Source: Planctomycetota bacterium (lineage in GTDB: Bacteria > Planctomycetota > UBA1135 > UBA2386). Taken from it: a stretch of 64,000 nucleotides of DNA. A program made the position numbers and the translations under genes. The notes below the pieces were generated by a model. It was not told the DNA's origin, searched no databases, and saw nothing but the letters and a program-made list of their open reading frames with translations. This document shows positions 4,839-47,568 of the stretch, piece after piece; positions within the stretch are counted from its first letter, which is position 1, and every line of letters starts with the position of its first letter. The stretch lies in the NCBI GenBank assembly GCA_020849665.1, contig JADLFX010000074.1, positions 1 through 64,000 of the forward strand, read 5' to 3'.

Positions 4839-5222
4839 ATGACCGTCACGACCGGCTTCTGGATCGCGCTGGCCGCCACGCTCGTCTGCGTCGCCGCCAC
4901 CCTGCGCACCGGCTTCCTGGGCCGCCGCCGGGCCCACTTCGTCCTCGCTCCGGCGAGCGTGGCGCTGCTCGCCCTCACCATCGTCCTGGCCGAGCGCATG
5001 GGTCGTGCGCGCCTCTTCCCGCCGGCAGAGATGCGGATCCACCTCGCGTTCGCCAAGAGCGCCGCGCTCCTGGTGCTGCCGGCGGCCGTCACCGGGCTGA
5101 TGCTGGTGCGCCGGCCGGGGTGGCGGCGCGCCCATGTCGCCTGCGTCGCGCTCTTCCTCCTCGTCACCGCGGTCGCGCTCGGGACCGGCGCGTGGGTCTA
5201 CTCCCTGTCCACGCCGCGCTGA
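4839..5222 (+). CDS. Hypothetical small membrane protein (four predicted TM segments)
   Basis: MTVTTGFWIALAATLVCVAATL...; hydrophobic segments; no family recognised. Confidence 0.6.
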   Translation: MTVTTGFWIALAATLVCVAATLRTGFLGRRRAHFVLAPASVALLALTIVLAERMGRARLFPPAEMRIHLAFAKSAALLVLPAAVTGLMLVRRPGWRRAHVACVALFLLVTAVALGTGAWVYSLSTPR

Positions 5223-5256
5223 GGCCCGGGCGGTGCCGCGGGGGCGGCTGGCGCGG

Positions 5257-6111
5257 TCACTCGGTGAAGCTCTCCAGTCCGGCGCGCATCGACTCGTCGA
5301 GTTCGGCGCGCACCCCGGGCCAGTCGGCCTCGACGATGCCCAGGCGGGCCACGTCTTCGGGATCGAACACGACCACGGGGGCGCACCCGGCCACGTAGCC
5401 GATCCCGCGGTGGTGGGCCTGGGCGTCGGCCAGGCGCACCATCGCCACGAGACGTTCGAAAGGCCGCGGCGGCGTGCCACCATGGTGCGCCTTCAGGGTC
5501 TCCTGGATCGCTTCGGTCAGGCCCCACTTGGCCGCCACCAGGGCCCCCGCCTCGGTGTGGTCGAGCCCGATCAGCGCCGCCTCCTCCTCGCAGGTCTCCT
5601 GCGGCGCGACCGCGGGGTTGCGCCGCGGCTGGGTGAGGTACGAGGCGAGCATCATCTTGCCGATGTCGTGCAGCAGGCCCGCGACGAACGCCTCCTCACG
5701 GGTCTCGCCGTCGGCATGGGCGATGCGCGCCAGGGTGCGTGCCGCGGCCGCCACGCACACCGCGTGCTTCCAGAGGCCCTTGTGGTCATGGCCGTACCAA
5801 CGGAAGTCCCGGTCCATGATCTTGGCCGCGGACGAGGTGAGCACCAGGCTGCGCAGCCCGCGGAAGCCCATCACCATGATCGCCTCGCGCACGGTCTTCA
5901 CCGGCCGCGAGAGGCCGTAGAACGGAGAGTTGACCAGACCCAGGAGTCGCGCCACGAGCAGGGGCTCGTGCAGGAGGTGGCGCTCCAGCTCGATGGGATC
6001 GCACTTGGGATCGTTGAGGAGGCCGAGCACCTTGACGGCCACCTCGGGCAACGGCTTGACCAGATCGCTGCGCTGCAGGATCTCGCGCCGGACTCGCTCG
6101 GGCTGACTCAT
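5257..6111 (-). CDS. HDOD domain-containing protein
   Basis: MSQPERVRREILQRSDLVKPLPEVAVKVLGLLNDPKCDPIELERHLLHEPLLVARLLGLVNSPFYGLSRPVKTVREAIMVMGFRGLRSLV; LLHDIGKMMLA. Confidence 0.9.
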   Translation of the reverse strand: MSQPERVRREILQRSDLVKPLPEVAVKVLGLLNDPKCDPIELERHLLHEPLLVARLLGLVNSPFYGLSRPVKTVREAIMVMGFRGLRSLVLTSSAAKIMDRDFRWYGHDHKGLWKHAVCVAAAARTLARIAHADGETREEAFVAGLLHDIGKMMLASYLTQPRRNPAVAPQETCEEEAALIGLDHTEAGALVAAKWGLTEAIQETLKAHHGGTPPRPFERLVAMVRLADAQAHHRGIGYVAGCAPVVVFDPEDVARLGIVEADWPGVRAELDESMRAGLESFTE

Positions 6112-30846: not shown

Positions 30847-32451
<1,605 letters not shown>

Positions 32452-32454
32452 GGT

Positions 32455-32772
32455 TCAGCCCTCCACCCGCGCGAGGATCTCGTTCTCGCGGATGATCTTG
32501 TAGTCCTCGCCGTCGACCTGGACGTCGCTGCCGGCGTACTTGCCGAACAGCACCGTGTCGCCCTTCTTGACGTCGGGCTTGACGCGGTTGCCGTCCTCGA
32601 GCCGGCGGCCCTCGCCCACGGCGATCACGGTGCCGCGCCCGGGCTTCTCGCGCGCGGTGTCGGGGAGCAGGATTCCGCCCGAGCTGATCTCCTCGGCGTC
32701 GAGGACGCGCACGACGATCCGGTCGTCGAGGGGGCGGATGTTCACATTGGTCTTGGTCTTGGTGTCCTTCAT
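32455..32772 (-). CDS. groES: Co-chaperonin GroES
   Basis: NIRPLDDRIVVRVLDAEEISSGGILLPDTAREKPGRGTVIAVGEG...KKGDTVLFGKYAGSDVQVDGEDYKIIRENEILARVEG. Confidence 0.97.
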   Translation of the reverse strand: MKDTKTKTNVNIRPLDDRIVVRVLDAEEISSGGILLPDTAREKPGRGTVIAVGEGRRLEDGNRVKPDVKKGDTVLFGKYAGSDVQVDGEDYKIIRENEILARVEG

Positions 32773-32810
32773 GGCATCGATACCTCTCTGGAATGCGGGG
32801 GTTGGGGCGG

Positions 32811-34448
<1,638 letters not shown>

Positions 34449-36024: not shown

Positions 36025-38568
36025 ATGAACTCCCTGGCCCTGACCTTCGGCGTCCTCTGTCTGGTCGCGGCCGTGCCGGGCGTGGTGCGCCGCGGCTACG
36101 GTCCCTGGACCGCGCGCATCGCCGCGCTGCTGGCCATGGGCTGCTTCGCGTGGGCGGCGCTCGACCTGCCGCGGAGCGAACGGAGCGAACTCGCGCCGCG
36201 CGTCGTGCTCCTGGCCACCGGCACGCCGGATGCGGCGTCCGAGGCGCTGGCCGCGCGCCTCGCGCGGGACCATCGGACGGTGGTCGACGTGCACGCGGCG
36301 CAGGGTGCGGTGGCCGCGCGCCTGACCGAACTCGCGCTGGTCGCCGCCCATGGACCGGAACCGCTGGAGCTCGTGGTGCAGTGGACCGCGCCGTTCCTGC
36401 CCCTCGGTCTCCCCGCCCTGGGCGACCTGCGCGTGCGCGCCGTCGCACCGCCCGACACGGCCCCGTTCGCGCTGGAGGACCTGCGCGTGCACGCGCTCGG
36501 CGCGTTCCAGGCCGGGCGGCCCGGCGCCCTCGAAGTGCGCCTGCCGGCGGTCCCCGCCGCGGTCGCGCTGGAACTCGAGGTCGCGGACCCGACCGGGGCC
36601 GTGCTGGCCAAGACCACCCACGCCCGCATCCCCGGTGCGAGCCAGCCCTGGTCGCAGGAGCTGTCGCCCCGCGTCGCGGGAGTCCACACCTTCGCGGTGC
36701 GGGCGCGCACCGGCACGTGGGCGTGCGAGGGCCGCGGGTCGTTCGCCGTCGAGGAAGCGCCGCGGGTCATGGTGTATGGCCCCGGCGCGGAGACCCTCGC
36801 CGGCGCCCTGGCGGTGCAGGGTGTCGCGGTGGCCGCGGCCCGCGCGCTGCCGCCGGACCTGAGCGGCTTCGCCGTTCTGGTGCTCACCGCGCGCCCGGCC
36901 GCCGCCGACGAGGAGCGCCTGCTGACATTCGTGGATGCGGGCGGCGGACTCTTCCTGGTGGGAGGCGAGGACGGCGGCGGCCTGCCCGAGCCCGAGCAGA
37001 CCATGGCACCGCTCTCGCCGGTGCTGCGTGTCGCGCGAGCACCCCGCCCGGACCAGGGTGCCGGTCCGGGCGAGGGCCGCGGCGAGGGCGAGGCGAAGCC
37101 GGATCCGAAGCCCGAGCCGGTCCGGCCGCCGCCGGATCCGACGCCGCAGCCCGAGTCCAGGGAGGCGCCAGGGCAGGCCCCGCCCACGGCTCCGCCGGCG
37201 AAGGGCGACACCGCCGGGGCGCGCCCCGGCCAGGGACTGGAGGAGACCGAGCGGCGCACGGTCGCGATGGCGCTGCTCATCGACCGCTCCGGCAGCATGA
37301 GCGCGGAGGTCGACGGCTCGGGTGGCCGCACGCGCATGGACTTCGCGAAGCAGAGCGCGGTGGAGACGGCAACCGCGCTCCTGCCCGGCGACGAGCTGAT
37401 GATCGTGGCGTTCGGCGAGAACCCCTCGGTGGTGCTGGGGCGCACCGAGGTGACGCGCATCACGGACCTGCGCCTGCGCATCGCGCGGCTGAATCCGGAC
37501 GAGCAGAGGACCGAGGCCGGTGCGGCGCTTGGGCTCGCGGCGGCACAGCTCGCCGGCTCGCGCGCCGCCGTCAAGCACGTGGTGATCGTGAGCGACGGCG
37601 AGATCCACGACGCCGACTACACGGCCAGCATGGCCAGGCGCGCCGCAGAACAGGGCATCACCGTCAGCGTGGTGTGGCTGCGCAGCGGTACGTCGCGCGC
37701 GGATCCCACCGCGCGCATCGCCCGGGTCGGCGGCGGCCGCTCGATCCCGTTCGACGACATCACCCAGGTGCCTCGCTTCGTCAGCTCCGAGGTGGCCAGC
37801 GTGTTCGGCAAGGTCGGCCGGCCCGCGCCTTCGGGCGAAGGCACGCCCGATCCGCGCCTGGCGCAGGCGCCGAAGCCTCCCGAACCCAGGACCGAGCCGC
37901 CCAAGCCCGAACCCGAGGAGTCCAGGCCGCGGCCGCCGGAGCCGCAGCCCCCCCGGCGCCCGGAGGAGCCGGCGGCCGCGCCCCTGGCGGTGCGCGCGCT
38001 GGCCGAGTCCGTGCTCCTCGCGCCCAGGCCCCGACCGGAGTTTCCGCCGGTGGGGGGCGTGGTCGCCAATCTGGCGCGAGCGGAGAGTCGCGTGCTCCTG
38101 GTCGCCGGCGACGAGGGCACGCCTTTGCTCGCGTTCGTGAACCGAGGCCTGGGCAAGGTCGGGGCCTGGACCGCCGACCTGCACGGCGCGTGGGGACGCG
38201 CATGGCGCGCGGACCCGGCGTTCCCGGGGCGACTGGCCCTGTGGGTGCGTGAACTCCTGCCGCCGCGCGCGACGCCGCTGCCCGGGGACCTCGTGCAGGA
38301 GCGGCGCGTGGCCGCGCCGCTGCCGACCGCGCGCGAGCGCGCCGTCCTGGCACGCCTGGCCGGCGGCGAGCCGGTCACGCCCGAGGCCTACGTGCCGCCG
38401 AGGTCGGTGACCGTCGAGCACACTCGGGGCCAGGCGGTGGAGCACGCCCGCCTCGGCCTCTTCGCGCTCTGCGCGCTCGCCTTGCTGGAGTTCCTGCTCG
38501 GGTGGCGCCTCGCGCGCCGCGCACCCGGCCCCGCGCCCGTGTCCCGCCCGGCTCGCTCCGCGGCGTGA
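36025..38568 (+). CDS. Membrane-anchored von Willebrand factor A domain protein
   Basis: N-terminal TM; MIDAS ALLIDRSGSMSAEVDG; VVIVSDGEIHDADY; Pro-rich linkers flank VWA; C-terminal TM ALCALALLEFLLGWRLARR. Confidence 0.88.
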   Translation: MNSLALTFGVLCLVAAVPGVVRRGYGPWTARIAALLAMGCFAWAALDLPRSERSELAPRVVLLATGTPDAASEALAARLARDHRTVVDVHAAQGAVAARLTELALVAAHGPEPLELVVQWTAPFLPLGLPALGDLRVRAVAPPDTAPFALEDLRVHALGAFQAGRPGALEVRLPAVPAAVALELEVADPTGAVLAKTTHARIPGASQPWSQELSPRVAGVHTFAVRARTGTWACEGRGSFAVEEAPRVMVYGPGAETLAGALAVQGVAVAAARALPPDLSGFAVLVLTARPAAADEERLLTFVDAGGGLFLVGGEDGGGLPEPEQTMAPLSPVLRVARAPRPDQGAGPGEGRGEGEAKPDPKPEPVRPPPDPTPQPESREAPGQAPPTAPPAKGDTAGARPGQGLEETERRTVAMALLIDRSGSMSAEVDGSGGRTRMDFAKQSAVETATALLPGDELMIVAFGENPSVVLGRTEVTRITDLRLRIARLNPDEQRTEAGAALGLAAAQLAGSRAAVKHVVIVSDGEIHDADYTASMARRAAEQGITVSVVWLRSGTSRADPTARIARVGGGRSIPFDDITQVPRFVSSEVASVFGKVGRPAPSGEGTPDPRLAQAPKPPEPRTEPPKPEPEESRPRPPEPQPPRRPEEPAAAPLAVRALAESVLLAPRPRPEFPPVGGVVANLARAESRVLLVAGDEGTPLLAFVNRGLGKVGAWTADLHGAWGRAWRADPAFPGRLALWVRELLPPRATPLPGDLVQERRVAAPLPTARERAVLARLAGGEPVTPEAYVPPRSVTVEHTRGQAVEHARLGLFALCALALLEFLLGWRLARRAPGPAPVSRPARSAA

Positions 38569-38575
38569 GCGCGGA

Positions 38576-39175
38576 TCAGCGGTCCTTCCGGTCCGGGGGC
38601 GTCTCCGGCGTGCTGCGCAGGTTGGTGTTGGGCTGCACGGCCGAGTGCTCGGTGGCGGGGTCCCAGTAGGTCTGTCCGAGCGCGGTCACCTGCTTGTAGC
38701 GCGTCGTGGTCGCCGAGCCGTCGGCGTGGACCCACCACTCGAGTCCGTCGGCGTCGACCACCTTGGCGATCACCGGGGGGACGCGTCCCAGGTCCGGGTC
38801 GCGCGTGGCGGGAGGTGCCGCGTTGAGGCCGTTCAGGTACGGCAGCCAGGTGCCATCGAAGAAGCCGATGCCCTTGCCCGGCTCGACCTTGGGCAGCCGC
38901 GACACGGGAATGCGGGTGCCCGGCGGCCAGGGGCTCTTCACGTGGAGGGGTTTCTCGCTCTTGCGATCGGTGGGGATGGGCAGCGGCGGCACCGGCTCCA
39001 CCTGCGGCTCCCAGCGGAACGCGGGTGCCGGGGCGCGCTCGGCCGGCGGCTGGCCGCCGGTGGGCGGAGTCGCACCCGCGGGCACTTCCGCGCCGGATTC
39101 GCGCAGGGCGAGGTACGCCCCGCCGAGGCCGGCGGCGGCGGCCAGCAGGATCCAGAGGAGCGCGCGCGGGTGCAT
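38576..39175 (-). CDS. Conserved (within-window paralogue) single-TM protein, WWVHADGSATT family, module A
   Basis: MHPRALLWILLAAAAGLGGAYLAL; PLHVKSPWPPGTRIPVSRLPKV...DGTWLPYLNGL...VVDADGLEWWVHADGSATTTRYKQV...TYWDPATEH; aligns by eye with the 45655-46251 product. Confidence 0.75.
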   Translation of the reverse strand: MHPRALLWILLAAAAGLGGAYLALRESGAEVPAGATPPTGGQPPAERAPAPAFRWEPQVEPVPPLPIPTDRKSEKPLHVKSPWPPGTRIPVSRLPKVEPGKGIGFFDGTWLPYLNGLNAAPPATRDPDLGRVPPVIAKVVDADGLEWWVHADGSATTTRYKQVTALGQTYWDPATEHSAVQPNTNLRSTPETPPDRKDR

Positions 39176-39188
39176 GCCGGGAGCGGGG

Positions 39189-40364
39189 CTACTCGACCAG
39201 GATCGATGAGGCGGTGGTGAGGGTCACGCTGGTGAACCCCGCGTTGAACACCAGGCCCTGGCACTTCAGGATCTCGCCGCGCGCCGCGAAACCCAGCGGC
39301 GGGACCGGGATCTGCGCGTTGGCGCCCGAGAAGGTGCCGCCCGCGCTGAGCGGCATCGTGATCGACGCGAGCACGTCCAGGGCCGGGAAGGTGGGATCGA
39401 GGAGCAGGTTGCCGAACGGCGTGGGAAGGCTGCCCGCGAACCAGCTGCGGCCCATGTTGATGAACACGACCGCGATGCCGGTGCTGCCCCAGTTGTTGCC
39501 GGCGCGCACGTCGAAGAAGAGGTTCCCGTTGCTGGCGCGTGACCAGTCGGAGATGCAGGCGGTGTTGCCGCGGTAGGTCTCGTTGGCGAGGCGCGGCACC
39601 TCGTAGGCGTTGGCGTGGTCGCCCGTGGCGGTGAGCACCAGCTCATTCACCAGCAGGCCGATCTTGGGCCGGTAGTTCCAGTCGCCGCCCAAGGTGATCG
39701 TGCGCGGATTGCTGCCGACCGCCCAGCCGTGGTACGGCCAGCCGCCCGGCCCTCGGCCGCCGCGCCAGTCGGACGCCACGGTCTGTCCGCCGTTGGGGTC
39801 GTCGCGCCATTCGCCGCCGCGGTACTCCACGAAGAGCAGCAGCTCGAGATCGGGCAGCGGCACGGGAGTGGTGAGGTTGAAGCTGTGCTCCACGATCGCC
39901 CACGTGCTGATCACCAGCGGCTGGTCGGCCACGTTGAGCAGGTCCTGCCCGGTCGTGGCGTGGGTGCGGTGGTAGCTGTTCTGGCCGGGCTGCGTGACGC
40001 CGATCCCGGTGCGGAACTGGTAGTGGTTCGGCGCCGGGAACGACTGCACGGCCGAGCCGGTGAACACGGCCTGGGTCATCCCGACCACCGTGAGGTAGTT
40101 GGGCGGGTTGGCCCCGGCCTGGGCGCGCAGCTTGGGCGTGTAGCTCCACGCGCGCGTCCCCGCCGCCACGCCAGGCGCCGCGGTGTAGCCGGGCGGGAGG
40201 GTCGAGGCTGCGGGATAGGGGTTGTTCGTGATCGGGTGCTTGGTGCTGGAGATGACCCGGAAGGTGTTGTTCACCGAGAGTTCGGGAACCGTGGGGTTGC
40301 CTTGCGCGGTCAGGGCCGACGCGAACGCGAGCCCGGCGAGCAGGGACGAGGAAACGCGCAGCAT
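39189..40364 (-). CDS. Secreted ~390-aa paralogue 1 (unrecognised family), module A
   Basis: MLRVSSSLLAGLAFASALTAQ signal; SFPAPNHYQFRTGI, FVEYRGGEWRDDPNGGQT, GSNPRT, FFDVRAGNNWGSTGIAVVFIN, LPTPFGNLLLDPTFP. Confidence 0.8.
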   Translation of the reverse strand: MLRVSSSLLAGLAFASALTAQGNPTVPELSVNNTFRVISSTKHPITNNPYPAASTLPPGYTAAPGVAAGTRAWSYTPKLRAQAGANPPNYLTVVGMTQAVFTGSAVQSFPAPNHYQFRTGIGVTQPGQNSYHRTHATTGQDLLNVADQPLVISTWAIVEHSFNLTTPVPLPDLELLLFVEYRGGEWRDDPNGGQTVASDWRGGRGPGGWPYHGWAVGSNPRTITLGGDWNYRPKIGLLVNELVLTATGDHANAYEVPRLANETYRGNTACISDWSRASNGNLFFDVRAGNNWGSTGIAVVFINMGRSWFAGSLPTPFGNLLLDPTFPALDVLASITMPLSAGGTFSGANAQIPVPPLGFAARGEILKCQGLVFNAGFTSVTLTTASSILVE

Positions 40365-40579
40365 GGTGCCTCCGAGAGAGAACGGGACGATCGGGCGTGC
40401 AGGCCCGGCTGGCCGCGAGGATAGCGCCGGGCCGCGGCGAATGGGGGCCGGCGCGGACGGGTGGGGCGCCGTTCCCCGTTTCCCGTCCGCGGTCGGGACG
40501 CGCCCGGCGACGCCGCCCCGCCCGCGCCGGGCGGGCGCGCGCCGCGCGCACCCGCCGCCGCGTGCGGCCCCGCGCCGCG

Positions 40580-41752
40580 TCAGTACACCAGCACCGACGA
40601 GCTCGTGGTCAGGGCAATGCTGGTGAAGCCCGCGTTGAACACCACCGCCTGCGCCTTCAGGATCTCTCCGCGCGCGGCGACACCGAGGGCGGGCACGGAG
40701 ATCTGCGCGTTGGCGCCGCTGTACGTGCCGCCTGCGGAGAGCGGCAGCGTGTTGGCCACGAAGAGGTCCAGGCCCGGGAAGGTCGGGTCGAGCAGGAAGT
40801 TGCCGAACGGCGTCCACAGGCTGCCCGGAAACCAGAGCCGGCCCATGTTGATGAACACCACCGCCGTGCCGGTGCTGCCCCAGTTGTTGCCGGCGCGCAC
40901 GTCGAAGAACAGGTTGCCGTTGGTGGCCGTGGCCCAGTCGGCATAGCACGCGGTGTTGCCGCGGTAGTTCTCGTTGGCGAGGCGCGGCGTGTAGTAGGCG
41001 TTGGCGTGGTCGCCAGTCAGGGTGAACACCGGCTCGTTCACCAGCAGCCCGATCTTGGGCCGGAAGTTCTGGTCCCCGCTCAGCAACACGGTGCGCGGGT
41101 TGTTGCCCGTCGTGTAGCCGTGGTAGACGAGGTTGCCCGGGCCGCGCCCGCCGTACCAGTCGGAGGCTATGGTCTGGCCGCCCATCGTGTCGTCCTGCCA
41201 CTCCCCGCCGCGGTACTCGACGAAGAGCACCAGCTCCAGGTCGGGCAGCGCCACCGGCGTGGTCAGGTTGAACGTGTGCTCCAGGATCGCCCAGGTGCTG
41301 ATCACCAGCGGCTGATCGGCCACGTTCAGGAGGTCCGGTCCGGTGGTGGCGTGCGTACGGTGGTACGGTCCCTGCCCGGTCTGCGAGGCCGCGATGCCGG
41401 TCCGGAACTGGTAGTGGTTCGGCGCCGGGAACGACTGCACCGCCGGGCCAGTGAACACCGCCTGCGTCATGCCGACGACCGTCAGGTAGTTGGCGCCGTA
41501 GGCGCCGGCCTGCGAGCGCAGCTTCGGCGTGTAGCTCCACGCGCGCGTGCCCGCGGCGACGCCGGGTGCGGCGGCATACCCGGGGGGCGTGGTCGGCGAG
41601 TACGGGTACGGGTTGTTGGTGATGGGGTGCTTGGCGGTCGACACCACGCGGAAGAAGTTGTTCACCGAGAGTTCGGGAACGGTGGGACCCTGGGCCGTCA
41701 ACGCGACCGTGAGAGCGAGTCCTGGGAGCAGGGAGGCAGCGACACGCAGCAT
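40580..41752 (-). CDS. Secreted ~390-aa paralogue 2 (unrecognised family)
   Basis: MLRVAASLLPGLALTVALTAQ signal; SFPAPNHYQFRTGIAASQTGQGPYHRTHATTGPDLLNVADQPLVISTWAILEHTFNLTTPVALPDLELVLFVEYRGGEW; near-identical layout to paralogue 1. Confidence 0.8.
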   Translation of the reverse strand: MLRVAASLLPGLALTVALTAQGPTVPELSVNNFFRVVSTAKHPITNNPYPYSPTTPPGYAAAPGVAAGTRAWSYTPKLRSQAGAYGANYLTVVGMTQAVFTGPAVQSFPAPNHYQFRTGIAASQTGQGPYHRTHATTGPDLLNVADQPLVISTWAILEHTFNLTTPVALPDLELVLFVEYRGGEWQDDTMGGQTIASDWYGGRGPGNLVYHGYTTGNNPRTVLLSGDQNFRPKIGLLVNEPVFTLTGDHANAYYTPRLANENYRGNTACYADWATATNGNLFFDVRAGNNWGSTGTAVVFINMGRLWFPGSLWTPFGNFLLDPTFPGLDLFVANTLPLSAGGTYSGANAQISVPALGVAARGEILKAQAVVFNAGFTSIALTTSSSVLVY

Positions 41753-41947
41753 GGTGACTCCGGGAGAGAGGGAGAGAGGCGCGGGCAGGGAAGTCCCCGC
41801 GGGCCGGGAGGATACCTCGGACCCAGCGCCGTGGGGTGTGCGGGTCCGATACGCCCAACCGTTCGCCGGGCTCCGCTGCCGGCCCGGGCCGCAGGCCTGG
41901 GCCGCATCCGGCGGTGACGCGGAGCGGGCCGGGACGGCGCCCGGGTC

Positions 41948-44047
41948 TCAGGGGCGCTCGCGCACCTTCAGGTCCTTCAGCGTGATCGTCTCGGGTCCCC
42001 AGTCGCGCCCGAAGATCCGTTCGAAGCGGAGCATCGAGGGGAGCAGGTGGTTGCCCACCTTGGTCAGGGTGACCTTGACGGTCTCGGTCCAGCGTTCCTG
42101 GCTCCGGCTCCCCGCGGTTCCGAGCGTCGATTCGATGCGCGTCACCGCCATGCGCCCGTCGATCCGTTCATAGGTGAAGCGCGTCGTTGCGTCCCTGGTG
42201 CTCCAGCCGCGCACCAGTCCCCCCTCGCCCTGCACCTCGAGCACCGGGCCGTTCTCGATGCGGAACGTCCCCGTCGCGTCCGCGGCGTGGATCGTTGCTC
42301 CTGCGAAGAACGACTCGAAGGTGGCGCGGTCGTTGAAATCGCGCGAGTGCCACATCAGCAGCCGGTCGCGGAACGCGGCGCCCAGGGCCATCTCGACCTC
42401 GGGGGGCAGCCTGCCTTCGCATTCGAGGTGCAGGGCCTGCAGATGCCGTCCGATCCCGGTCATCGTCACGGTGCCCTTCACCCTCTTCTGGCGGAGCCAG
42501 ATCAGGTCGGAACCCGGATGGGTCACCTCGAACCCCGCCGCGATCTCGATCGGCGCCTCCGGCAGGCGGTACGCGGTGTCCCAGAGCGCGCGCAGGGCAG
42601 CGGCGCCCTCGCCGGTGGGGGCGCGCACGGCCACCGCGCCCTGGCCGTCGAAGCGCAGATCGGAGAGGGCGAGCTCGCTGGCCGAGAAGAGCTTGTCGCC
42701 GAACGCCGTCGTGCTGGTGCTGCCTGCGGGTACCTGGAGCCCATCCTGCTCGCGGTACCGGAACGTGGTCCGCTGCGAGCTGGAACGAAGTTGGGTGACC
42801 AGGTAGCCGCGGCCGGTCTCCTGCACCTGCCACGTGGTGCGTGGGCCGTCGCCGGTCCCTTCGCCGACGATCCTGTCCTCCGCCACCTGGTAGTCGACAT
42901 GGAGCCCGATGTGCGTCCCGGCGCCGGTCGTGGACATCGGCGCCGCGACGGACGGATCCAGCCATCCGGGACCCTGCACCTCGACGCGATCCGCGGCCAC
43001 CTCGCCGAGCCGGTTGCGTGCCGCGAAGGTCGCGAAGTCCGGCCGGCGCACCTGTTCGAATGCCGAGGCGATCGCCGATGCGGCGTTCGCACCCTGGCCC
43101 GAATCGATCTCGACCCGGACCGGCCCCTTCGCCGGGAGGGTGAAGCGCCCGGTCACGGCGTGGTCCTCGTACTCGCTGCTCGAGTTCAGCTTCTGGCGGC
43201 GTTCTCGGAAGGCGAACCTGCCGCTCACCGCGGTGGCCGCGTCGGGCCAGCGGTACCAGCGCTCGTAGGCGGGACGGAGCCGCCTGGCGCCTGCCTCGGG
43301 ATCCGCCCTGCCGACCAGGCTCCAGTCGGCGAGTTGGAATGCCGTTGCCTTCAGGGCCGAGGCCGGTGCCGCTTCGGCGTCGAGGTAGGCGCGCGGGCCG
43401 GCTCGCCCGGCCAGCACCCAGGGCAGGGTCGCTCCCGCGGGCACGCGCACCCCCATCAGCTCGGTCAGATCCGCGGGCTGGGCCAGGGTGACCAGCAGGA
43501 GCACGTCCAGGTCCCGGTCGAACGGGTTGGTGAGCTCGATCTGGGTGACCGGGAAGGTCCCGACCATGGAGGTGCGCTGCACCGTCGTGGGGCGGGAGAT
43601 CTTCAATCCCGGCCGCGCCACCTCGACCGGTCCGTGCCACGCCGCGCTGAGCACGCGCACGGCGTACTGCGCCGGCGTGCCGTGCAGCGCAGTGCCGAGC
43701 GTGTAGACCTGCTTGCCGCCGGGGGGCGCCCCGCGTCCGTAGCGGCGCACGAGCGGCAGCTGCACGCGGCGGAAGGTCTCCGCGCGCGGAGCTGCGCCGC
43801 CCCGCTCGCGCAGCTCGATCCCGAACTCCAGCGGCTCCGCGGTGGCCGTGCCACGATTGTGGACCTCCACGAGCAGGAGCTGCGAGAACTTGTCGACCGC
43901 GCGCACGCCGGCCACGCGGCACTCCAGTCGGGCGACGTCGCCGGTCAGGAACTCGGGCTCGCGCGGCTGCTCCTGGGCAGATGCCGCCCCGGCGCCGGCG
44001 AGCCAGAGGGAGGAGAAAAGGGCGCGCGCGAGTCGGATCCGGGTCAT
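41948..44047 (-). CDS. Large secreted protein of unknown function
   Basis: Signal MTRIRLARALFSSLWLAGAGAASAQ; 700-aa intact ORF, no recognised domain. Confidence 0.7.
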   Translation of the reverse strand: MTRIRLARALFSSLWLAGAGAASAQEQPREPEFLTGDVARLECRVAGVRAVDKFSQLLLVEVHNRGTATAEPLEFGIELRERGGAAPRAETFRRVQLPLVRRYGRGAPPGGKQVYTLGTALHGTPAQYAVRVLSAAWHGPVEVARPGLKISRPTTVQRTSMVGTFPVTQIELTNPFDRDLDVLLLVTLAQPADLTELMGVRVPAGATLPWVLAGRAGPRAYLDAEAAPASALKATAFQLADWSLVGRADPEAGARRLRPAYERWYRWPDAATAVSGRFAFRERRQKLNSSSEYEDHAVTGRFTLPAKGPVRVEIDSGQGANAASAIASAFEQVRRPDFATFAARNRLGEVAADRVEVQGPGWLDPSVAAPMSTTGAGTHIGLHVDYQVAEDRIVGEGTGDGPRTTWQVQETGRGYLVTQLRSSSQRTTFRYREQDGLQVPAGSTSTTAFGDKLFSASELALSDLRFDGQGAVAVRAPTGEGAAALRALWDTAYRLPEAPIEIAAGFEVTHPGSDLIWLRQKRVKGTVTMTGIGRHLQALHLECEGRLPPEVEMALGAAFRDRLLMWHSRDFNDRATFESFFAGATIHAADATGTFRIENGPVLEVQGEGGLVRGWSTRDATTRFTYERIDGRMAVTRIESTLGTAGSRSQERWTETVKVTLTKVGNHLLPSMLRFERIFGRDWGPETITLKDLKVRERP

Positions 44048-44307: not shown

Positions 44308-45474
44308 TCACTGGATCAGGATCGTCGTGGCAGACGTCAGCGCCATGTTGGCGAACCCGGCGTTGAACACCAGCGCCTGCGCCTTCACGAACTGGCCTCG
44401 GGCCGTGGGGCCGAGGGTGGGGATGGCGACGCGGTTGGCCTCGCCCTGGTTGTAGACGCCGCCCGCGCTCAGGGTCAGCACGTTGCCGACGAAGAGCGTC
44501 AGGAACGGGTCGGTGGGGTCGAGGAGCAGGCCGCCCCACGGCGTGGGCACCTTCCCCGCGAACCAGTTCACGCTCCCGTTCAGGAACACCACGGCCGAAC
44601 CCGTGCTGCCGTAGGTGTTGCCCGCGCGCACGTCGAACCACAGCGAGCCCTGGGTCGACGTGGCCCAGTCGGCCCAGCAGGCCCCGAGACCGCGGTGGAA
44701 CTCGCTGGCGAGCGGCGGGCTGATGTAGCTGTTGCTGTGGTATCCGGTGGCCGTGAGGATCGGCTCCTGCACGAGGAACCCGAGCTTCGGCCGGAACAGG
44801 CTGCCGCTGCTGAGCCCCACGGTGCGCGGGTTGCTGCCGGTCGTGTAGCCGCAGTACACGAGGCCGCCGGGGCCGTAGCCGCCGTAGTAGTCGCAGGCCA
44901 TGGTCTGTCCGCCCTGCGGGTCGTCCCGGTACTCGCCGCCGCGGTACTCGGCGAAGAGCAGGAGGTCGACGTCGGGGATCGCCACCGGCGTCGCCAGCGT
45001 CGTGCTGATGTCGAACACCGGCCCGTTGGGGATCGCCACCGGCGCGTCCGCGACGACCAGGAGGTCTGCGCCGCTGGGCGCATGCGTCCGGTGGTAGGGA
45101 CCCTGGCCTGGCTGCGACGGGGCGATGCCCATCTTCATCTGGTAGTGGTTCGGCGCCGGGAACGTGGCCACCGCGGCGCCCACGCGCACCGACTGCAGGA
45201 TGCCCGTGACGGTGAAGTAGTTGGCGCCCTGGTGGCCCTGCTGCGCGCGCAGCTTGGGCGTGTGGGTCCACAGGCGCGTGCCGGCCGCGACGCCGGGGGG
45301 CGTGGCCGAGTCGTAGCCCGGCGGCACGGTGGGCGAGTAGGGGTAGTAGTTGCCCGTGCCCGGGTGCTGGAGCGTCGAGCGGACCGTGCGCGTGTTGTTC
45401 ACGACGAGCTCGGCGTCCTGGGCGAAGAGGGAGCTGGCGAGCACGGCGCTCGCGAGGAGCAATGGCATGTGCAT
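44308..45474 (-). CDS. Secreted ~390-aa paralogue 3 (unrecognised family)
   Basis: MHMPLLLASAVLASSLFAQ signal; FPAPNHYQMKMGIAPSQPGQGPYHRTHAPSGADLLVVADAPVAIP, FAEYRGGEYRDDPQGGQT, WFDVRAGNTYGSTGSAVVFLN, VPTPWGGLLLDPTDP. Confidence 0.8.
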   Translation of the reverse strand: MHMPLLLASAVLASSLFAQDAELVVNNTRTVRSTLQHPGTGNYYPYSPTVPPGYDSATPPGVAAGTRLWTHTPKLRAQQGHQGANYFTVTGILQSVRVGAAVATFPAPNHYQMKMGIAPSQPGQGPYHRTHAPSGADLLVVADAPVAIPNGPVFDISTTLATPVAIPDVDLLLFAEYRGGEYRDDPQGGQTMACDYYGGYGPGGLVYCGYTTGSNPRTVGLSSGSLFRPKLGFLVQEPILTATGYHSNSYISPPLASEFHRGLGACWADWATSTQGSLWFDVRAGNTYGSTGSAVVFLNGSVNWFAGKVPTPWGGLLLDPTDPFLTLFVGNVLTLSAGGVYNQGEANRVAIPTLGPTARGQFVKAQALVFNAGFANMALTSATTILIQ

Positions 45475-45654
45475 GGCGTTTGGCGGTGGAGGCAGGCGGG
45501 CCTGTGCACCGGCGGAGGAGCGCCGGCGTCCGGCCCGTGGACGGGCGCAGGATACCGCGTCACGCGGCGGCGGTGGGCCGGTCCCCGTGGACGGCCCGGA
45601 CCGGCGGCGGGCGGGGGCCGGGCGCGTACGGACGGCGGCGGTGCGCGGGTGCTC

Positions 45655-46251
45655 CTACCGCGCGCCGGGTCGGGTGCCCGGCTCCCCGGGCGGGAGGATC
45701 TCCGAGGCGGGTTGCGGCGTGCCGTGGCGCGTGGCGGGGTCCCAGTAGGTGTCGTTGCCGACGCTCACCTGGTGATAGCAGGAGGTCGTGGCCGAGCCGT
45801 CCGCGTGCACCCACCACTCCAGCCCCGCGGCGTCGACGAACTTCTCGACCACCGGCGGCACGGGTCCGCGCGCGGGGTCCCGGTGCAGCTTCGGGGCCCA
45901 GGTCATCCCGTTCAGGAAGGGCAGGAAGGTGCCATCGGGCAGCGGGATCCCGTTGTCGACGCGCGGGAGCGAACGCACGGGGATCCGCGTGCCGGGTGGA
46001 TGGGGGGAGCGCACGTGCAGCGCGCTGGGCGCGCGCGTGCTGGTCAGGAACGCCACGGGCGGCACGGCGACGGCGGGGGCCTCGGCCGTGATCGGCTGCG
46101 TCGCGGGTGCCGGCCGCGTGGCGGCGGGAGGCGGGGGCGCAGGCGCGGGCGGGAGGTCCGCCGCGCGCCCCCACCACAGCGCCGCGCCCCCGGCCGCCGC
46201 CAGCGCGACGCAGCCGAGGAGCACGGCCGGGACCTTGGGTGCCCCGCTCAC
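45655..46251 (-). CDS. Conserved (within-window paralogue) single-TM protein, WWVHADGSATT family, module B (GTG start)
   Basis: SGAPKVPAVLLGCVALAAAGGAALWWG TM; ALHVRSPHPPGTRIPVRSLPRV...DGTFLPFLNGM...FVDAAGLEWWVHADGSATTSCYHQV...TYWDPATRH; 4-bp overlap with 46248. Confidence 0.72.
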   Translation of the reverse strand: MSGAPKVPAVLLGCVALAAAGGAALWWGRAADLPPAPAPPPPAATRPAPATQPITAEAPAVAVPPVAFLTSTRAPSALHVRSPHPPGTRIPVRSLPRVDNGIPLPDGTFLPFLNGMTWAPKLHRDPARGPVPPVVEKFVDAAGLEWWVHADGSATTSCYHQVSVGNDTYWDPATRHGTPQPASEILPPGEPGTRPGAR

Positions 46252-47414
46252 TCCACGAGGATCGCCGCGGCGCCGGTCAGCGTCAGGTTGGTGAAGCCCT
46301 GGTTGAAGACGATGGCCTGCACCTTCAGGACGTTCCCGCGCGCGCTGGCACCGAGCGCCGGGACCGCGATCGCCTGGCTCTCGCCGCTGTAGGTGCCGCC
46401 TGCCGAGAGGGTCAGCGGGATCCCCACGAAGAGGTCGAAGTACGGGTCGACCGGCGAGAGGAAGAGGCTGCCCCACGGCGTGGGCAGCGCGCCCTGGAAC
46501 CAGCCGTTGTTGGCGAACACCACCGCGGTGCCCGTGCTGCCGAACTGGCCGCCGGCGCGCACGTCGAACCAGAGCGAACCCTGGGTCGAGGTGCTGTAGT
46601 CGGCCGCGCACGCCGCGATGCCGCGGTAGTACTCGCCGGTGAGCCGTGGCGTGTAGTAGCGGTTGGCGTGGTAGCCGGTGGCGGTGAGGACGGGTTCCTT
46701 GACGAGGAGCCCCATCTTGGGCCGATAGTCCGGCTCGCCCGAGTAGACCACCGTGCGCGGGTTGCTGCCCGTGGTGTAGCCGCAGTAGGCCAGCGCGCCC
46801 GGGCCCTTGCCGCCCTGGTAGTCGCAGCCCGCGGTCTGCCCGCCCAGCGGGTCGTCCCAGTACTCGCCGCCGCGGTACTCCAGGAAGAAGCACAGCTCCA
46901 CGTCCTGCATCGGCACCGGCGTGGCGAGCGTCGTGCTGATCTCCCAGATCGGCCCGTTGGGGATCACCGTCGGGGCGTCGGCGACGCTGAAGAGATCCGC
47001 GCCGGTCGGCGCGTGCTGGCGCTGGTAGGCGCCGGTGCCGGGCACCGTTGGCGCGATGCCGCACTTGAACTGGTAGTGGTTGGGCGCCGGGAACGAGGCC
47101 ACGGCCGGACCCACGTAGATCGACTGCGTGATGCCCGAGATCGTGAGGAAGTTCGGTCCGAGCTGGCCCGCCTGGTAGCGGAACTTCGGCGTGTAGGTCC
47201 ACAGGCGGGTGCCCGCGGCCACGCCGGGGGGCGTGGCGCTGGCGTAGCCGGGCGGCGTGGTCGGCGAGTACGGGTAGTAGTTGCCCGTGCCGGGGTGCTG
47301 GCCGGTGGAGCGCACGCGGAAGAAGTTGTTGACCGCGAGTTCGGGGTCCTGGGCGGAGAGTGCTGCGGCCAGGCTGGCGAAGGCGACCAGCGCCGCGAGA
47401 GAGGGAGCTTGCAT
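46248..47414 (-). CDS. Secreted ~390-aa paralogue 4 (unrecognised family), module B
   Basis: MQAPSLAALVAFASLAAALSAQ signal; SFPAPNHYQFKCGIAPTVPGTGAYQRQHAPTGADLFSVADAPTVIPNGPIWEISTTLATPVPMQDVELCFFLEYRGGEYWDDPLGGQT, WFDVRAGGQFGSTGTAVVFANN. Confidence 0.8.
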   Translation of the reverse strand: MQAPSLAALVAFASLAAALSAQDPELAVNNFFRVRSTGQHPGTGNYYPYSPTTPPGYASATPPGVAAGTRLWTYTPKFRYQAGQLGPNFLTISGITQSIYVGPAVASFPAPNHYQFKCGIAPTVPGTGAYQRQHAPTGADLFSVADAPTVIPNGPIWEISTTLATPVPMQDVELCFFLEYRGGEYWDDPLGGQTAGCDYQGGKGPGALAYCGYTTGSNPRTVVYSGEPDYRPKMGLLVKEPVLTATGYHANRYYTPRLTGEYYRGIAACAADYSTSTQGSLWFDVRAGGQFGSTGTAVVFANNGWFQGALPTPWGSLFLSPVDPYFDLFVGIPLTLSAGGTYSGESQAIAVPALGASARGNVLKVQAIVFNQGFTNLTLTGAAAILVE

Positions 47415-47568
47415 GGGAGTTCCTGGGTTGCGGGACGCGCCGCAGCATAGCGCACGCCGCGCCGCCGGCTTGGGGCCCGCGCCGCCGCCGCGCACGGGCC
47501 CGGGCGCGCGGTGCTCCCCCGGAACCCGCCCGCGCCGTAGATTGCCGGACCCCTCCCCGAGGCCCAAC

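Follow-up and report, generated by a model that had tools for sequence, protein, structure and literature searches.

The closest described systems are membrane-anchored exported-protein partner cassettes. The two-gene unit analyzed here shares with them the operon layout, the single N-terminal anchor, the flexible linker and the C-terminal extracytoplasmic domain. In contrast to these cassettes, neither the large nor the small protein of the unit has a match to a described family in Pfam, NCBIfam, PHROGs or PADLOC. Polymorphic toxin/immunity pairs resemble the unit in having a small overlapping partner gene and in diversifying in step, but differ by the excess of solo large genes (large genes without a small partner) and the lack of a toxin or immunity domain seen here. 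Dockerins are modular extracellular binding domains and provide a functional analogy only: the small domain of the unit likewise occurs both by itself on a tether and as a part of other exported proteins, whereas no sequence or fold relation to dockerins was found and no duplicated calcium-loop motif was seen in the sequence. A literature search revealed nothing on this large/small pair.

In this study, we analyzed the unit at 45,655–47,414 (module B), its neighborhood within the window, i.e. the whole 64-kb stretch of DNA, and its relatives in other genomes. The most economical reading, to which we would give an even chance, is that of an exported large protein and a small protein dedicated to it, tethered to the membrane and serving as anchor or escort.

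Organization and history of the units in the window

The genes and signals of the two modules are listed in Table 1. Coding potential supported the open reading frames of both modules, of both solo large genes and of the 699-aa gene, so that four large paralogues and two small genes lie within 9 kb.

Table 1. Features of modules A and B and of the genes between them
Feature	Position	Strand	Description
Large B	46248..47414	-	388 aa from ATG; predicted exported; signal-peptide-like N-terminus with LSAQ followed by D; open reading frame, coding score, type I large superfamily
Small B	45655..46251	-	198 aa from GTG; membrane anchor near the N-terminus at residues 9-31, then a Pro/Ala linker and a beta domain (about 81-180); last residue R
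GTGA stop/start overlap	46248..46251	-	TGA of large B and GTG of small B; sequence
Large A	39189..40364	-	391 aa; open reading frame, coding score
Small A	38576..39175	-	199 aa; 13 bp behind large A
Solo large	40580..41752	-	Sister of large A, 79% aa identity
Solo large	44308..45474	-	Closest to large B, 66% aa identity
Predicted exported protein, independent family, bystander	41948..44047	-	699 aa; between modules A and B
TATGCT, -10-like hexamer	47444..47449	-	Starts 35 bp before large B
TATCCT, -10-like hexamer	45549..45554	-	Starts 80 bp before solo large 44308
TATCCT	41809..41814	-	Starts 62 bp before solo large 40580
TATCCT	40418..40423	-	Starts 59 bp before large A

The original prediction described module B as a second, translationally coupled copy of module A. 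The 4-bp overlap of large B and small B was confirmed in the sequence, and module A shows the same gene order and orientation, although its two genes are separated by a gap and do not overlap. In pairwise alignments, large A and large B are 57% identical over 385 aa and small A and small B 49.5% over 188 aa. The motifs ascribed to both small proteins are thus real, except that the one given as VVDAxGLEWW reads FVDAAGLEWW in small B. Both solo large genes were correctly placed between the modules. The predicted 700-aa secreted protein between them is also present and predicted to be exported; however, it is one residue shorter and was rejected as a member of the unit, since its homologues, found in 17 of 61 related genomes, lie away from the small-gene loci. 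It belongs to an uncharacterized family with no Pfam match.

For the solo large genes, duplication with loss or gain of the partner had been proposed. In the tree, large A and the solo large at 40580 are sisters with 100/100 support; large B and the solo large at 44308 are mutually closest paralogues by identity, their sister status being unresolved once the tree is rooted. Each large gene of the window has its own upstream region, and a search for a relic of a small gene behind the two solo large genes found none. Because of the supported sister pair, the separate upstream regions and the missing relics, a duplication of large genes alone appears to be the better reading, while the duplicated nature of the unit stands. 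Duplication of small and large as a pair within the window is compatible with the data, which comprise two small genes only, but is not proven.

On both strands of the 64 kb together, there are just three copies of the hexamer TATCCT, all of them located 59–80 bp upstream of a large gene; the third pair of the host genome, on contig C31, was found to be without it. The hexamers in Table 1 are consensus-type matches in GC-rich DNA and represent candidate promoters only. They suggest that every large gene has a promoter of its own and that the small gene depends on read-through and translational coupling.

Two further features were observed in the window. The gene at 36025-38568, convergent with small A, codes for 847 aa including a von Willebrand A domain. 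At 30847-34448, a groES-like gene is flanked by two groEL-like genes and adjoins dnaJ- and grpE-like genes.

Distribution, adjacency and co-divergence

The distribution of the unit is much wider than the window alone shows. On contig C31, the host genome carries a third, diverged pair, in which the large protein is 29% and the small one 36% identical to its counterpart in module B, together with one more type I solo large, and a type II large is present on contig C90. Thereby, at least seven large genes face three small genes in the genome, compared to four and two in the window. Using a 26-member profile, we detected 65 small homologues in 32 of the 61 related genomes, a count from which matches to anchor and linker alone were omitted. 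Many large genes of these genomes are without a small partner, and tandem large genes beside one small gene occur in the window and at the loci L049 and L056. In a sample of 392 genomes of the phylum, scanned as a first look less sensitive than the search of the 61 genomes, matches were found only inside the same order of Planctomycetota. So far, the two-gene unit has been found in this order only. A plasmid search was negative.

Of the 65 small genes, 44 lie at most 1.5 kb from a large gene, whereas the number of large genes and the genome size lead to an expectation of about 0.24; counting weaker large matches beside L104 and L106 raises this number to 46. As 24 of the 44 neighboring large genes had gone into profile building, circularity was checked by hand: among 41 small genes whose neighbor was not used in the large profiles, 20–22 still adjoin a large gene. 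About 30% of the small genes have no recognizable large gene nearby.

The 44 pairs occur in four arrangements: 24 on the same strand with the large gene first, 7 with the small gene first, 8 divergent and 5 convergent, one case with a gap of 0 having been reassigned by hand. Therefore, adjacency itself was kept through rearrangement and is not merely an inherited operon. Among 28 distinct same-strand pairs with the large gene first, 15 have a start codon of the small gene at -4 or -1, counted from where the stop codon of the large gene ends. Since this overlap recurs, the GTGA of module B is not due to chance. Stop/start overlaps or very short gaps conserved in relatives characterize translationally coupled pairs; coupling of the unit, as originally claimed, is thus probable, although module A itself does not overlap.

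Also, the two proteins diverged in step. Distances of small domains and large proteins correlated with r = 0.79 for 26 pairs, the maximum of 1999 permutations being 0.42. For 44 pairs from 25 genomes, the Mantel r was 0.72, and none of 999 within-genome partner swaps reached this value (mean r = 0.55, maximum 0.713). The swaps remove species relatedness, while linkage by descent remains, and the swap mean indicates that co-divergence of the linked genes partly reflects common descent. With both correlations, the test of co-duplication that had been named in advance turned out in favor of the prediction: neither set of sequences diverges independently of the other. As the genes stayed together and diverged together for long, their products very probably work as partners.

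Some small genes have other neighbors. A subset of the solo small genes adjoins nuo-like NADH dehydrogenase genes in three genomes, with no large gene nearby (L030, L031 and L022; G055:C352, G038:C209 and G052:C106). In two other cases from two genomes (L020, L057), the small gene and a gene coding for an FG-GAP-like exported protein face each other. By eye, the final strand of this protein looks like that of the large proteins; a common C-terminal domain received no support from profile comparison.

Properties of the small and large proteins

The small proteins consist of an N-terminal membrane anchor, a Pro/Ala-rich linker, a beta domain of about 75 residues with the conserved motif PDGTxLPxLNG...EW[YW]xHADGSxTTxx, and a tail usually ending with K or R. 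In 26 members, hydrophobicity analysis revealed one N-terminal hydrophobic stretch and no second one; a lipobox is present in L004 and, by eye, in L011. In the model of small B, the anchor forms a helix and the beta domain is confident (pLDDT about 87–95). Only a few residues lie on the cytoplasmic side of the single anchor in this model, and the folded domain is predicted to be extracytoplasmic. With Foldseek, the domain model had no match at E ≤ 0.001 in the PDB (best E 0.68) or in BFVD (best E 0.4). PDB sequence matches of the small profile were unconvincing, as they cover the anchor, the linker and the run-up to the domain. The domain is also found in two predicted exported proteins, following a DUF7133 domain in L055 and within a Sortilin-Vps10 protein in L061 (both around 4986-5270), which suggests that it is an independent extracytoplasmic module. 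It is a previously undescribed domain.

Of 53 small proteins, 43 terminate in K or R, compared to 12 of 49 other window genes. Tail-specific proteases prefer non-polar ends; as a guess, the charged end might shield the presumably disordered periplasmic tail of the small protein from them.

The large proteins comprise about 390 aa. Profile matches unite those beside small ones into two groups, type I (window, C31, G011, G013 and G014) and type II. Both types align with each other by hhalign at E = 1.1e-9 over 276 columns, compared to E ≥ 0.025 for FG-GAP controls, and all large proteins thus form one superfamily. Their N-termini are signal-peptide-like and end with AQ. Of 55 large proteins, 40 end with L or F, but not those of type I, including the window's own; type I proteins also have no common polar invariant residues of catalytic type. 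The fold model of the large protein, predicted from six sequences, reached a pLDDT of 27.

Possible roles of the pair

In the proposed mechanism of an exported protein with a tethered partner, the large gene would carry the promoter, and ribosomes ending on it would re-initiate on the small gene, which would yield both products in a fixed ratio. The large protein is predicted to exit by Sec, and the small one to be retained by the inner membrane, for a few members as a lipoprotein, presenting its beta domain on the flexible linker. This domain would most likely bind the matching large protein and thereby anchor or escort it at the envelope; additional solo large proteins would either use a tether jointly or be set free. 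Sequence is the basis of the statements on export, anchoring and promoters, and it does not decide between an anchor, an escort or a sensor role of the small protein toward the large one. The small genes that lack a nearby large gene, among them those beside nuo-like genes, and the many solo large genes argue against this mechanism.

A signalling pair would have the same anatomy. Here, the large protein would be an extracellular ligand-binding protein whose state is read by the tethered small domain, with no anchoring involved. The modularity of the domain in the two fusions and the several diverged paralogues per genome are in line with this, but with so few cytoplasmic residues the small protein could relay a signal only via another membrane protein, and no recurrent regulator gene was noticed next to the pairs. 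We therefore consider sensing unlikely. A surface structure, with the large protein as repeating subunit and the small one as membrane-proximal base, would account for the surplus and the tandem arrays of apparently exported large proteins, and the frequent L or F ends are in its favor as well. These ends are missing in type I, however, no usher, sortase or pilin-type partner was noticed beside the pairs, and the low-confidence model gives no fold evidence for the large protein, which makes this explanation quite improbable.

Slightly less probable still is that the two exported proteins are unrelated and share no more than a transcript: the small genes without a large neighbor would fit, whereas the adjacency kept in divergent, convergent and reversed orders and the partner-specific co-divergence within genomes argue against it. 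Least probable is an exported toxin with a membrane-tethered periplasmic immunity protein, despite the two overlapping, lineage-specific genes that diversify in step. In immunity systems, toxins without immunity are not expected and orphan immunity genes are common, but here the large genes exceed the small ones, both in the window and in the genome. Moreover, the databases named above gave no toxin or immunity family match, and catalytic-type invariant residues are lacking in type I.

A more far-reaching possibility, which we regard as rather doubtful, is a new cohesin/dockerin-like recognition system. Here, recognition would be the task of the small domain, whether tethered or fused, and each large protein would be the partner that matches it in sequence. 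Co-evolving pairs of the lock-and-key type would then direct many exported proteins of a single planctomycetotal order to the membrane. The cell envelope of Planctomycetota is unusual, and large numbers of their exported proteins are uncharacterized. A recurrent, co-evolving pair whose small domain is confidently modelled and has so far remained without a match offers a concrete way to approach them. From the pairs, the exported partner expected to bind each tether can be predicted, and since the small domain also occurs in two protein types that are otherwise known, it may be a module of general use for docking or envelope targeting within the order.
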